Source: Acidobacteriaceae bacterium
GTDB lineage: Bacteria; Acidobacteriota; Terriglobia; Terriglobales; Acidobacteriaceae
Length of the DNA stretch: 64,000 bases
NCBI GenBank assembly: GCA_025356095.1
Contig: JANXUR010000074.1
Location: 1-64,000, forward strand
Direction: 5' to 3'
The notes beneath the pieces are model-generated. The model ran no database searches, was not told where the DNA came from, and was given only the letters and a program-made list of their open reading frames with translations. Position 1 is the first letter of the stretch, and every line of letters starts with the position of its first letter. A program made the translations under genes and the position numbers. Below, one piece after another: positions 41,194 through 51,785 of this stretch.

Positions 41194-41679
41194 CTATTCT
41201 TCGATGTCGAGCGTCAGGAACAAGGGCAATTCTTCAAACGAAAGCTTTAAGCAAACCTTGGTTGAGGCCCCAAGTGGATGCAAAGTATAGCTTTCGCCCA
41301 CGATGACCGTGGGCACTGAGAGCACACATTGCTCATCATGCTTGTTGAGCTTGTTCTTGAAGTTCCCCGCCACCATGTTGGCGACTTCACCGGCTGCATC
41401 CCAACACTGCGGGTCAGATTCGTCCAGTGCCACCCCCAGCATCTTTTCTGCCATCACGGCCGCGCCCTTCAACGACGTGCGCACGGCGATGATGCCGGAG
41501 AGGCTGCCTGCCAAACCCACCATGGAGGTGATGCCCGGAGATTTGTTGGAGTCAATGGCTGGTAGCTCGACCAGTTCACAACCGAGCATCATCTCGAAGA
41601 CCTCGCGTGCCGATTCCTCCAGCAGCGAGCCCCAGGCGTCAGGAGACTGCCACTTACCTGTTGCCGACCCTGCGCTCAT
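41194..41679 (-). CDS. cheX: CheX/CheC-type CheY-P phosphatase
   Basis: A 161-residue protein of the CheC/CheX/FliY class. The phosphatase helix has the Glu-x-x-Asn pattern in AAGEVANMVAGNFKNKL, which removes phosphate from CheY-P. A single such helix suggests the CheX type. It follows cheY with an ATGA overlap, so enzyme and substrate are translated together. It ends the fliL-to-cheX run. Confidence 0.85.
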   Translation of the reverse strand: MSAGSATGKWQSPDAWGSLLEESAREVFEMMLGCELVELPAIDSNKSPGITSMVGLAGSLSGIIAVRTSLKGAAVMAEKMLGVALDESDPQCWDAAGEVANMVAGNFKNKLNKHDEQCVLSVPTVIVGESYTLHPLGASTKVCLKLSFEELPLFLTLDIEE

Positions 41680-42062
41680 GCCTTACCGTCCAGAATAGGA
41701 AGCACATGTTCCCGCACTTGATCAGGCGTGAACGGCTTCCGGATATAGCCGCGCGCTCCATAAGAGAGAGCTTGCACGACGTGAGACTCACTGCCTTCGG
41801 TGGTAATCATCACTACCGGTGTGGATTTACTGTTGTCTAGGGTCTGCAACTGGCGCACAAATTCCAGCCCGTCCATCACGGGCATATTGATGTCGCACAG
41901 AATGAGATCTACACTTCGTTCGCCCAGTACGCACAGAGCTTCCGCGCCGTTGCCCGCTTCCAGCACTTCGGTGAGCGTGACTCCTGCCTGGCGCAGGGAG
42001 CGTTCTACAATCTTCCGCATTACGGAAGAGTCGTCTATGATTAGCGCGCGTACGTCACCCAT
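41676..42062 (-). CDS. cheY: Chemotaxis response regulator CheY
   Basis: A 128-residue single receiver domain. The acid pocket is IIDDSSVMRK, the phosphorylated Asp57 lies in CDINMPVMDGLEF, then Thr in MITTEGSES and Lys in YIRKPFTPDQV. It binds FliM to switch rotation, and sits in the same run as fliM. The start at 42062 has GGAAGG upstream; the open frame extends to 42242 into the neighbouring gene without domain similarity. Confidence 0.93.
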   Translation of the reverse strand: MGDVRALIIDDSSVMRKIVERSLRQAGVTLTEVLEAGNGAEALCVLGERSVDLILCDINMPVMDGLEFVRQLQTLDNSKSTPVVMITTEGSESHVVQALSYGARGYIRKPFTPDQVREHVLPILDGKA

Positions 42063-42159: not shown

Positions 42160-43143
42160 TTAGAGCCGGCCAGAAGGCCGGGGGTAACCTTCGTCCGCGG
42201 CGTGGGAGGAAATGCCAGTTGTGGCAAGCGCCGGAGCTGCAAAGGTCACGTCAAAACTACCGCGTGAGGTATCGAGCCGCGCCCACAAGGTGCGGCGGCA
42301 ACCAAACAGACGAACTCCGCTAGCCTCTACCCGGCGGCAATAGTTGCCCAGTATTCGCGCCATCTCTGCTATTTCTACTACCGTGCGAATTCCTACTTCG
42401 CGATGCCGGGAAACTTGCCGGATGGCATTCATCTGCCGCTCAAATCCGCCTTCGCTGACGATGCCCGCTTCGGTGTTACAGTCCAACGCCTGCTGAATCG
42501 TGAACAAAGTGGGATAGTCAATGCCATCCACAAACGCAGTCAACAAAGTCCTCGTCGAGGCATTCCAGTGCACGCCCAGTACCCTGCAAGCTTCCATCAG
42601 TGCCACCGGTAACAGCCGACTCCCCGCCGCAGCCGAGGCGGATTGCATTACCAGCAAAGGTGCCGACCACTGCTGACCTAGCGCGGCGGTGACCTGCTCT
42701 TCGGTTGCCGCGCCTAAGTGTTGCAGCCATTCGCCAATCCGGCCTTCCCCTTCCCTGCGCTGCGCCGCCAACGCCGTCTGCAACTGGGTCGCCGTAATAT
42801 CGCCACGGGAAAGCATCAGTAAGCCCAGCGGCACCCGGTGATGGGGCGCTTTTGCCCTGCCCGAGCGCTCGATCAAGGCCGTAAGTTGCTCGTACGCTGC
42901 CTGTTCCCAGCACTCACCTCCGCAATACCACAGGCTATCCAGCAGCCGACCCGGGCGCAACCTTAGTTGGATGGAAGAGACGCCCCGCACCCGCTCGCAT
43001 TCTGGATTCGAACAGCGGTCAAACGCCAGCACCGAATGGTGGCTTTTTGCCGTCCGTAACCCGCCCGCAGTGCTTGATTCCGCTCCGGAACGAAGCCAGC
43101 CCAACGGCAAGGTTTGCCATGCGCGTGCCAACAGAGGCATCAT
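42160..43143 (-). CDS. Unrecognised Cys4 and MshEN-like protein in the C-ring operon
   Basis: A 327-residue cytoplasmic protein with no signal or membrane segment. It has a Cys44-x4-Cys49 and Cys74-x3-Cys78 pair, which suits a small zinc site. A helical stretch (about 104-170) with LGLLMLSRGDITATQLQTAL and EEQVTAALGQQWSAPLL resembles the MshEN/GspE N-terminal domain, which in other proteins can bind c-di-GMP. The C-terminal half is unassigned. It overlaps the fliN2 stop (ATGA) and precedes cheY by 97 bases. Function unknown; position suggests switch or chemotaxis control. Confidence 0.75.
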   Translation of the reverse strand: MMPLLARAWQTLPLGWLRSGAESSTAGGLRTAKSHHSVLAFDRCSNPECERVRGVSSIQLRLRPGRLLDSLWYCGGECWEQAAYEQLTALIERSGRAKAPHHRVPLGLLMLSRGDITATQLQTALAAQRREGEGRIGEWLQHLGAATEEQVTAALGQQWSAPLLVMQSASAAAGSRLLPVALMEACRVLGVHWNASTRTLLTAFVDGIDYPTLFTIQQALDCNTEAGIVSEGGFERQMNAIRQVSRHREVGIRTVVEIAEMARILGNYCRRVEASGVRLFGCRRTLWARLDTSRGSFDVTFAAPALATTGISSHAADEGYPRPSGRL

Positions 43144-44045
43144 GACGCCACCGCCGTAGCTGCCGTCACTGCCGTAACGCGCAATCCGTAATTGCCTTCC
43201 ACCACCACCACTTCGCCCTTGGCGATCACCTTGCCATCGAGTAACAATTCCACCGGGTCTTCAATCTGCTGGTCGAGTTCAATCACCGTGCCAGCACAAA
43301 AATCGAGAATTTCACGCAGCGGCATCCGCCGCCGCCCAAAGCGCAACACCACGCCCAAATGGACGTCCCAGAGTAAGTCGAGATTGGCGGCAGTTCGATT
43401 GGCGTTTGCTGGATTGGCGTTTGCTGGATTGGCGTTCGCTGGATTGGGGTTCGCGCTCGCGGCTGTAGCCGCACTTGGAATTGCCTCTGCCACCACAGTT
43501 GCGGGGATGAGGGACGCTGCCAGCGAGTCATCGCCGAGCGCAATCAATGTCGCCAGCATAGTGTCGCCGTCGGCCAAGGTCAACGCGGAAACGCCTTCGC
43601 CTGCGGATGGCGGAGACGACTCCAGCGAAACGTCCAGTTTGACTTCGCCAAACTCTGCCTTGATCGCTGTCCCAATCAGACCGCCGGCTTGCCGGAAGAG
43701 CTCGAGGAGAGCTTCGCGGGAGTCATCGGTGAGGGCGCGAGTGGAAGCGTCTCCGGGGTCCTCGCCGGTAAATTGGCAAGCCAGCAGCACGGCATCGGCT
43801 TCACTCAGATGCATGGCGAGACGTCCGGCAAACTTGCCGTCACGCCCGCCACTGTGCTGGAGAATGATTGCCGGCAAGGCACTTTCAGGAATCGTCAATC
43901 CGCTTGGAGCCAGCAAAGCTGCTTGCAGCGTCTTGCCAGACATCTGTCCCAATACGCTAGCCAGTTGTCCGCCCCACAGGGTGAGGTAGCGCGCTATGGG
44001 GGAAGGACTGGTCGAGGGTGTAGTGGAACTGGCTGGTGCGCTCAT
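43140..44045 (-). CDS. FliN/FliY-type switch protein, long form
   Basis: A 301-residue protein with a C-terminal SpoA (FliN) domain: LLWDVHLGVVLRFGRRRMPL, then VIELDQQIEDPVELLLDGKVIAKGEVV (shown in two parts of one domain). The N-terminal 170 residues look like a CheC-type domain (ALLELFRQAGGLIGTAIKAEFG), as in FliY, but the phosphatase Glu/Asn pair is not evident. Between them is an Asn-Pro-Ala repeat from 15-bp DNA units. It overlaps fliM by ATGA. A second, short FliN lies at 51408. Confidence 0.83.
   Translation of the reverse strand: MSAPASSTTPSTSPSPIARYLTLWGGQLASVLGQMSGKTLQAALLAPSGLTIPESALPAIILQHSGGRDGKFAGRLAMHLSEADAVLLACQFTGEDPGDASTRALTDDSREALLELFRQAGGLIGTAIKAEFGEVKLDVSLESSPPSAGEGVSALTLADGDTMLATLIALGDDSLAASLIPATVVAEAIPSAATAASANPNPANANPANANPANANRTAANLDLLWDVHLGVVLRFGRRRMPLREILDFCAGTVIELDQQIEDPVELLLDGKVIAKGEVVVVEGNYGLRVTAVTAATAVAS
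43397..43454. repeat. 15-bp repeats in fliN2
   Basis: Two identical GATTGGCGTTTGCTG units, then GATTGGCGTTCGCTG and a partial fourth copy encode the NPANA linker between the two domains. The frame is kept. Confidence 0.88.
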
Positions 44046-45019
44046 CCCTGCACCCCCTCAACCGACGTTCCAATTCCGAGTGCCTGCTGCAACTGGGCCA
44101 CGCGATGGACGCCGCGACGTGCGACATGCGCAGCAAATGCTGGCGTGCCTGCCGTGGTCACAGTCGCTGGCCGGTCCACTCCATAACGCAGTGGCAGAAT
44201 CATACCCGGCTGCAGTTCCAGCAAGTCTTCTGCCGTCACCGGAACCTCAAACAAGCTCAGATCCACCGGGAAAGTGCATTCCCGCAACAGCCGCCGCATC
44301 CGGGCTTGCGCGCCCGGCTGTTTGCGCGGACGGCGCTCTTCAATTTGCCGGGAAAGGCGCCGCAGTAGCGCGCCTGAAACCACCGGGGGAAAGGCAAAGC
44401 TGAACGCACCGCTCGCCGAATTCAATTTGATTTCAAAACTCAATGCCAAGATCCGCTCTTGAAACGGGATCAGCCGTTGAAAATCGCCCGGCAGAGTGGG
44501 ATTCTCCAAGTGGAAGCTCAGCGGCAGCAGCTTCCACGGACCTTCGAGCTCTTGGCAGAAGAGGCCAATCAGGTCGCGCAAAATTGGGTCTTCGATTTCG
44601 CTGATCGGACGGCCCGGGGGCTCGGCCTGACCGAGTCCGCCCAGCAGCGAATCCATCAGAGCAAAGGTGATTCCCAGATCAATCTGCAAGGCCGCCTGTG
44701 CCGCTAACGGCATTACGGAGACGGACGCGAGATAGCTCTGGTCGGGAACCCGGTCAAGATAGTCGAGAAAGGGTAAGCTTTCGGCGGATACCAATGCTAC
44801 CGTTACTTCGGTCTGCAGAAATGCCGTCATGCGCTGCGTCAGCCCGCGCGCGAACGTCTCGTGCATATAAGTAATGGCACTCATGGCCGCGCCGCCAATC
44901 AGGCTGGTTTGGGCAAAATCACAGGGAACGACTGAGGGGGCGACTGCTTCTGCCTTTCCGCCTCCCCGGGCGGCCCGTACCATCGCATCAATTTCTTGCT
45001 GACTGAGAATTTTTTCCAT
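44042..45019 (-). CDS. fliM: Flagellar motor switch protein FliM
   Basis: The 325-residue FliM forms the middle of the C-ring. The N-terminal CheY-P-binding motif reads LSQQEIDAMV, the CheC-like middle domain has GLTQRMTAFLQTEV and LIGLFCQELEGPW, and the SpoA domain forms the C-terminus (ILPLRYGVDRPATVTTAGTP). The position of the conserved GGxG motif is filled by LLGGLGQAEPP. AGGAAA precedes the ATG. It overlaps fliN2. Confidence 0.94.
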   Translation of the reverse strand: MEKILSQQEIDAMVRAARGGGKAEAVAPSVVPCDFAQTSLIGGAAMSAITYMHETFARGLTQRMTAFLQTEVTVALVSAESLPFLDYLDRVPDQSYLASVSVMPLAAQAALQIDLGITFALMDSLLGGLGQAEPPGRPISEIEDPILRDLIGLFCQELEGPWKLLPLSFHLENPTLPGDFQRLIPFQERILALSFEIKLNSASGAFSFAFPPVVSGALLRRLSRQIEERRPRKQPGAQARMRRLLRECTFPVDLSLFEVPVTAEDLLELQPGMILPLRYGVDRPATVTTAGTPAFAAHVARRGVHRVAQLQQALGIGTSVEGVQG

Positions 45020-51082: not shown

Positions 51083-51411
51083 ACGGCACCTCGCTCAAGG
51101 GCTGGCACCGCAGGAGTGTTAGAAGGCGACTCCGCCAGCAGCGCCATCGAATTTGCCGTGCCACCCAGCAACAGTTGGCGCCCGTTCCACTCCACCACCG
51201 CCAGCATTCGGCGCTCGCCGAGAGAAACTGTTTCTTTCACCCGCAACTGGCGCGAAGGGCGATGCTGTTGCCATAGGCCACACAGCCCTTGCCAAAGGTG
51301 CAGCAATACCCCATGTGCCCCATTCCAAAGCGAAGCCGAAATCGGAGCCAAAGCTGCCACCCGCATGTTGCCCGGTTCGGGTGTGCTCGGGATGGTTGCG
51401 GTAGGGTTCAT
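51070..51411 (-). CDS. fliO: FliO-like flagellar assembly protein
   Basis: A 113-residue protein in the fliO position between fliN and fliP. The C-terminal half has the FliO pattern: LRVKETVSLGERRMLAVVEW, then RQLLLGGTANSMALLAE. FliO normally has a membrane helix before this. Here the segment ISASLWNGAHGVLLHLWQGL is only mildly hydrophobic and contains Asn, His and Gln. FliO helps the FliP ring form. Confidence 0.8.
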   Translation of the reverse strand: MNPTATIPSTPEPGNMRVAALAPISASLWNGAHGVLLHLWQGLCGLWQQHRPSRQLRVKETVSLGERRMLAVVEWNGRQLLLGGTANSMALLAESPSNTPAVPALERGAVCQR

Positions 51412-51785
51412 GCTGCGTGCGACTCCTCTTCGATCTCCGGCGCGGTGTTTTCTGTAGGACTGCCCTGCTCGCCGTTGCCACCTTTTTCGCCGGGATCATC
51501 TGCCAGTTCGGTAACCCGCACCGCCAGATTCGCGCCGATCACTTCAAACTCCACCCAAGCCACCGCCTGGCAGTTCACAAACAGCGGCAAGTCCCGACCC
51601 ACTTTCCAGCCTGTGTCCAGCACATTGCCCGGTATGAGTTGCATCACGTCGGCGATGCGATAGTCTGAAATGTTGAGTTCGACATCCACATCGCAAGGCA
51701 GGTGCAGCACCCGCTGCCATGCGGGCGGCAGAGTGTCTGCCGCACTTTCCTCGGTAGGGCGGGCATTGGTCAGCTCGTCTTCCAT
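51408..51785 (-). CDS. fliN: Flagellar motor switch protein FliN, short form
   Basis: A 125-residue protein with one SpoA domain (about 25-95): VLHLPCDVDVELNISDYRIA, then QLIPGNVLDTGWKVGRDLPL and VEFEVIGANLAVRVTEL. The N- and C-terminal tails are acidic. It overlaps fliO by 4 bases. The cluster has a second SpoA protein beside FliM at 43140. Confidence 0.88.
   Translation of the reverse strand: MEDELTNARPTEESAADTLPPAWQRVLHLPCDVDVELNISDYRIADVMQLIPGNVLDTGWKVGRDLPLFVNCQAVAWVEFEVIGANLAVRVTELADDPGEKGGNGEQGSPTENTAPEIEEESHAA

Follow-up and report, generated by a model that had tools for sequence, protein, structure and literature searches.

One of the flagellar brakes of the PilZ type is MotI. YcgR and FlgZ are likewise PilZ-domain c-di-GMP receptors that act as flagellar brakes on FliG, FliM or MotA (PMC9303241), while the Cle proteins of Caulobacter are CheY-like c-di-GMP effectors with an Arg-rich tail, which bind the switch (PMC5677366). 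The MshEN (GSPII) domain (PF05157 / NF053729) is known from the ATPases MshE, PilB and PilF and from NfrB, where it is joined to an ATPase or glycosyltransferase partner domain and encoded in pilus, secretion or polysaccharide loci, and it has also been described in association with CheX, CheA or REC (PMC5013675). In a literature search covering few subscription journals, no MshEN protein at the flagellar switch was found, nor anything on flagellar c-di-GMP control or the choice between swimming and settling in acidobacteria. The gene analysed here, called X, encodes a protein that has the fold and the two 24-residue half-motifs of MshEN in common with MshE, PilB, PilF and NfrB. The main difference is that in X the place of the ATPase or glycosyltransferase is taken by a small C-terminal domain and an N-terminal Cys4 module, and that X lies in a flagellar operon. 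The role proposed for it below, which would be to relay c-di-GMP signals to the flagellar motor, is like that of YcgR, FlgZ and MotI, but these have a PilZ beta-barrel with RxxxR and D/NxSxxG, to which MshEN is unrelated, and a PilZ domain sought in X and its homologues gave no match. X would also resemble Cle as a switch-binding c-di-GMP effector, but the receiver domain and the Arg-rich tail are those of Cle, and X has no receiver domain. Moreover, the associations with CheX, CheA or REC link MshEN to chemotaxis-type modules, whereas X is a separate protein with a Cys4 module that is tied to fliN2, and cheX is a mere neighbour.

The window, which is the whole stretch of 64,000 nucleotides analysed here, contains X on the minus strand with these genes around it:

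44042..45019, minus strand: fliM, at which the C-ring part of the operon begins (Pfam FliM, E 6.9e-26)
43140..44045, minus strand: fliN2, 301 aa, FliN C-terminal domain at residues 224-293 (Pfam FliMN_C, E 4.9e-21), the conserved upstream neighbour of X
42160..43143, minus strand: gene X, encoding a 327-aa Cys4 / MshEN / beta-alpha-beta-beta-beta protein (from the ORF, homologues in place and the AlphaFold model)
41676..42062, minus strand: cheY, downstream of X (Response_reg, E 8.1e-30)
41194..41679, minus strand: cheX (Pfam CheX, E 8.4e-19)

The coordinates given for X in the initial annotation were right; the ORF starts with ATG, and it is not a chance one, since it is conserved in more than 100 loci. 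The same annotation had described the gene as embedded in its run by an ATGA overlap, which is true of the fliN2 side, but on the cheY side there is a gap of 97 bp from the stop codon of X to the start of cheY (42062). The minus-strand cluster comprises flgB, flgC, fliE, fliF, fliG, fliH, fliI, fliJ, fliK, flgD and flgE, then fliL, fliN1, fliO-R, flhB, flhA, fliA, fliM, fliN2, X, cheY and cheX, and then flgF, flgG, flgA, flgH, flgI, flgJ, flgM, flgN, flgK and flgL, the smaller genes being named by sequence and order only. The N terminus of FliM (MEKILSQQEIDAM) resembles the CheY-binding motif. Two FliN proteins are encoded in the cluster, as a second, short fliN (fliN1, 51408-51785) is located in the fliL-fliO-fliP part. 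Both in the window (43140-44045) and in the homologues, the FliN domain of fliN2 is preceded by an N-terminal region that is divergent, some 200 residues long and variable in length, and at some loci a short FliN alone is apparently present instead of the long one. A promoter and terminator scan around X gave about as many sites as shuffled sequence, and X had no match in plasmid and phage-family libraries.

In a first round, 61 genomes were searched, giving 21 X-type places in 20 relatives, the window gene excluded. All 21 loci have fliN2 directly upstream of X, and in nearly all of them the start of X overlaps the stop of fliN2 or lies within about 15 bp of it; a single wider gap seems due to a wrongly placed end of fliN2. 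Even in two genomes with fliM on another contig (G010 and G020), X is still found behind fliN2. In one relative (G027) the series flgB-flgC-fliM-fliN2-X occurs a second time, behind a sigma-54 response regulator (L036:7817-10660), and there flgC and fliM are read as one ORF (Flg_bb_rod plus FliM), perhaps by fusion, decay or assembly error. An earlier single-sequence scan had found nothing; when 84,980 species genomes were scanned with peptide patterns built from Terriglobia members, at least 80 loci were obtained, besides 81 further relatives. All 80 loci listed carry acidobacterial titles, as found with these Terriglobia-derived patterns, and include Terracidiphilus gabretensis, Paracidobacterium acidisoli, Acidipila rosea, Edaphobacter lichenicola and Granulicella. 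Of the 80 listed, 77 have fliN2 immediately before X and three begin at a contig edge, while X is followed by cheY in 65, by flgF in 5 and elsewhere by nothing recognised. Furthermore, 19 of 20 full-length homologues from other families of the phylum lie in a flagellar cluster, 17 of them with fliN2 before and flgF after X; one has fliN2 before and cheX/cheY after it (L093), and one begins at a contig edge with flgF seen (L088). At two loci that were examined, an HDOD gene and a DUF2802/DUF6115-like gene lie between fliN2 and X (L084:6359-7732 and L085:8651-10249). The remaining homologue with Cys4 and MshEN parts lies outside the flagellar cluster, between secDF and tatD as named by sequence (L102:7246-8070), in a genome (G302) that has fliM elsewhere; it is either an X that has moved or a sign that the Cys4-MshEN architecture had an older use outside flagella. 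In the tree of 41 rows, the Terriglobia-type rows are split from the rest with full support. Thus, throughout the lineage X is encoded together with C-ring genes, and by far most orthologues have a flagellar location, which is the opposite of the outcome (orthologues mostly away from flagellar genes) that the initial annotation had named as refuting its idea. Of its further view that X sits between the C-ring and CheY, the fliN2 side is conserved and the cheY side is not constant. A tie of X to cheY was in part rejected, as flgF or nothing recognised follows at some loci, and fliN2 is the real partner of X because cheY follows in most of the loci listed and not in all.

Co-occurrence was counted in a phylum sample of 396 genomes, with X taken by profile match and FliM over the cut-off. 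There are 56 X-positive and 103 FliM-positive genomes, and FliM is present in all 56 of the former (expected 14.6), with a hypergeometric P of 8e-40 that is too small given the kinship of the genomes, although the trend itself is clear. We have very little doubt that X has a flagellar function. On the other hand, 47 of the 103 FliM-positive genomes, including one large family (f32), do not have X, so that a flagellum does not require it. No X was found after fliM/fliN2 in the five closer relatives examined. In one genus of the same order (G039, G045 and G047; L204:5788-7723, L205, L206), fliM-fliN2 stand without X, and an oppositely oriented response regulator follows fliN2 where it is seen; this genus offers a natural X-less comparison group.

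The protein encoded by X can be divided into these parts:

42904..43014, minus strand: N-terminal Cys4 module, residues 44-80, C44-x4-C49 and C74-x3-C78, predicted treble-clef-like zinc finger
42409..42837, minus strand: whole MshEN (GSPII) domain, residues 103-245 (VIA, Foldseek, hhalign)
42670..42831, minus strand: two 24-residue c-di-GMP half-motifs in the MshEN N subdomain, residues 105-128 and 135-158 with a spacer of 6 (NF053729, 40.8 bits; motif definition in PMC5013675 and PMC11731258)
42220..42414, minus strand: C-terminal beta-alpha-beta-beta-beta domain, residues 244-308, with W287-x-R289 (pLDDT 85.3 when modelled alone)

Residues 105-158 exceed the cut-off of 38 bits of NCBIfam NF053729, entitled 'cyclic di-GMP-binding domain-containing protein, MshE-related'. 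Every one of the 21 first-round members also matches this model with an E of 0.1 or less, the best being 8.3e-15. The Pfam search of the window protein gave no Pfam match and did not reach MshEN (PF05157), which 16 of the 21 family members match with an E no higher than 1, the best being 4.2e-6. Using phmmer, X matched the MshE chain 5htl_A at E 3.8e-5, and the 21-member profile searched against the PDB matched PilF (1.5e-37), PilB (1.8e-22) and MshE (5htl, 4.5e-15). The AlphaFold2 model of X, made from the 21-member alignment, has a mean pLDDT of 82.5, and within residues 101-300 the ten-residue means are 82-98. With this model, Foldseek (E 4.9e-8) gave 5htl (MshE with c-di-GMP) and PilF GSPII domains as its top matches, and VIA aligned it with 5htl_B (MshE bound to c-di-GMP) over 135 residues (Z 17.2, 2.4 A) and with crystal structures of c-di-GMP-bound PilF GSPII-B (Z 16-17), while nothing outside the MshE/PilB/PilF ATPase family rose above Z 4.0 in the VIA fold search. 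The predicted structure has the MshEN fold, that is, a four-helix N subdomain and an alpha/beta C subdomain. The initial annotation had noted a helical stretch resembling MshEN and referred the domain call to structure prediction; the model bears the resemblance out, and the profile and fold evidence is stronger than was claimed, but it concerns a whole unit of N and C subdomains and not one helical stretch.

The half-motifs and the spacer read PLGLLMLSRGDITATQLQTALAAQ - RREGEG - RIGEWLQHLGAATEEQVTAALGQQ. As published, the motif is RLGxx(L/V/I)(L/V/I)xxG(L/V/I)(L/V/I)xxxxLxxxLxxQ, occurring twice (PMC5013675), and in its strict form it is known to be too narrow: position 1 was later widened to (R/K/L), all three residues being compatible with nanomolar binding, and K167L even tightened binding to 2 nM (PMC11731258). 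Moreover, the relaxed search motif of PMC5013675 admits Pro at position 1. The window protein departs from the strict motif at Pro105 for Arg (position 1) and Asp115 (position 11) in motif I, and at Ile136, Gln141 (position 7) and Val151 in motif II. At the key contact positions, 11 of 12 are identical or conservative, Pro105 alone being outside R/K/L, and the count becomes 12 of 12 once Pro is allowed at motif I position 1, as it does in 31 of the 41 homologues. This Pro is found in all 21 Terriglobia-type rows, while 18 of the 20 non-Terriglobia rows have all 12 key positions with R/K/L alone allowed there. G107, G137 and Q158 are each present in 41 of 41 homologues and Q128 in 35 of 41. D206, aligned with the Gua2-contacting D108 of MshE, is not conserved and was dropped as evidence. 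Against a c-di-GMP receptor stand the break of the strict published motif in the window protein and the fact that some MshEN domains do not bind the ligand; X nevertheless probably binds c-di-GMP.

The Cys4 pattern reported in the initial annotation is present and almost invariant in the 41 homologues (C44 and C49 in 40 each, C74 and C78 in all). In the AlphaFold model, a hairpin (residues 66-73) is followed by a long helix from residue 76, with C74 and C78 placed where the hairpin ends and the helix starts, a treble-clef-like arrangement with two Cys pairs of which the second is at the helix start. PDB profile matches to the Cys4 stretch were weak and non-significant (E 0.23-0.39), a methionine aminopeptidase 1 fusion and YNG1, both of which are zinc-finger proteins. 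The simplest reading of the model is that the module is a predicted structural zinc finger; for metal sensing, which had also been suggested, nothing was found in support.

The same genome has three GGDEF matches and one EAL match, i.e. enzymes for c-di-GMP synthesis and degradation are encoded. Three PilZ matches are found in frames of 135-190 aa, but a PilZNR domain sought in the genome was not found, and no YcgR-type receptor was seen. Since the c-di-GMP enzymes are encoded, no YcgR-type protein was seen and the predicted anatomy of X is that of receptor and docking modules without an output enzyme, X is proposed as an MshEN receptor that acts on the FliN2/FliM switch. We lean slightly towards the view that it is a soluble cytoplasmic receptor through which c-di-GMP reaches the flagellar switch of acidobacteria, and which docks on FliN/FliM and tunes rotation or switching. 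The MshEN domain would bind c-di-GMP, the Cys4 module as a structural zinc finger would dock together with the C-terminal domain on FliN2/FliM at the C-ring, although gene position alone is no proof of contact with FliN2, and ligand binding might shift the modules relative to each other and so alter rotation bias or speed in one sense or the other. It seems rather doubtful, though possible, that X inhibits the motor as a brake rather than activates it. The FliM-positive genomes without X and the homologue outside the flagellar cluster (L102) speak against a switch receptor.

Whether X acts directly at the switch or on assembly or expression appears evenly balanced. For instance, X could be a c-di-GMP-responsive factor for the assembly, placement or number of flagella, such as one for C-ring/rod assembly. 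Its position between the switch genes and the rod genes (flgF, flgG) of the basal-body operon would suit such a factor, as would its presence where cheY/cheX do not follow; since X occurs at loci without that pair downstream, it needs no adjacent cheY/cheX. But many flagellated acidobacteria are without X, and the gene most constantly found beside it is fliN2, a switch gene and not an export or rod gene, and we regard a factor of this kind as unlikely.

The relation to PilB raises another alternative, in which X is what is left of a PilB/GspE-type ATPase and its MshEN fold survives only as a scaffold, linking C-ring proteins without binding c-di-GMP. X is not such an ATPase itself, as it has 327 aa, no T2SSE/AAA match in Pfam and no ATPase domain; its homologues stop within about 100 residues after the MshEN domain, and in the phylum sample X-type proteins score 174-309 bits against at most 128 for the PilB type. 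hhalign matched X to PilB at 99.8% over residues 100-294, with the part up to residue 294 placed co-linearly, if weakly, on the N2 subdomain of PilB. The C terminus alone aligned with PilB N2 at a probability of 13.7% (pairwise E 0.002; reversed control 0.2%). The fold search with the C-terminal domain gave nothing but alpha/beta folds of common types, at Z values up to 6.1, and the absence of PilB N2 from its lists excludes nothing. The beta-alpha-beta-beta-beta elements of this domain span residues 247-302; in the 41 rows, the W of its W-x-R is invariant and the R is kept in more than 90%. It is possible, from these alignments, that the C-terminal domain is a remnant of PilB N2, and X may have descended from a PilB-like protein after loss of the ATPase domain. 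The co-linear C terminus, the Pro at motif I position 1 in the Terriglobia branch and the known example of a non-binding MshEN domain, PilF GSPII-A (PMC11731258), all fit a scaffold. However, the ligand-contacting Gly and Gln residues are among the most conserved positions of the family, and the extended motif is complete in the members outside Terriglobia, which would be needless for a mere scaffold, so this alternative seems quite improbable. Finally, although a Cys4 module could bind nucleic acid and fliA and a flgM-like gene are also in the cluster, X matches no DNA-binding family and follows fliN2, not a regulator gene, and it is very hard to believe that X regulates flagellar gene expression through contact of its Cys4 finger with nucleic acid or a sigma/anti-sigma factor.

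Returning to the switch receptor, we assume only tentatively, with rather less than even confidence, that X stands for a phylum-wide class of motor receptors, in which an MshEN domain with a Cys4 finger would be held at the C-ring by FliN2 and c-di-GMP would set the motor output directly. If X acts as proposed, it would be the first known case of an MshEN protein at work on a rotary motor and would take the part of YcgR in acidobacteria; it would also be a third, independently recruited c-di-GMP motor effector beside the PilZ proteins and Cle. A domain known from pilus ATPases would then have been reused on the rotary motor in a highly abundant soil phylum, and X offers a testable way into the decision of soil acidobacteria to swim or to settle.
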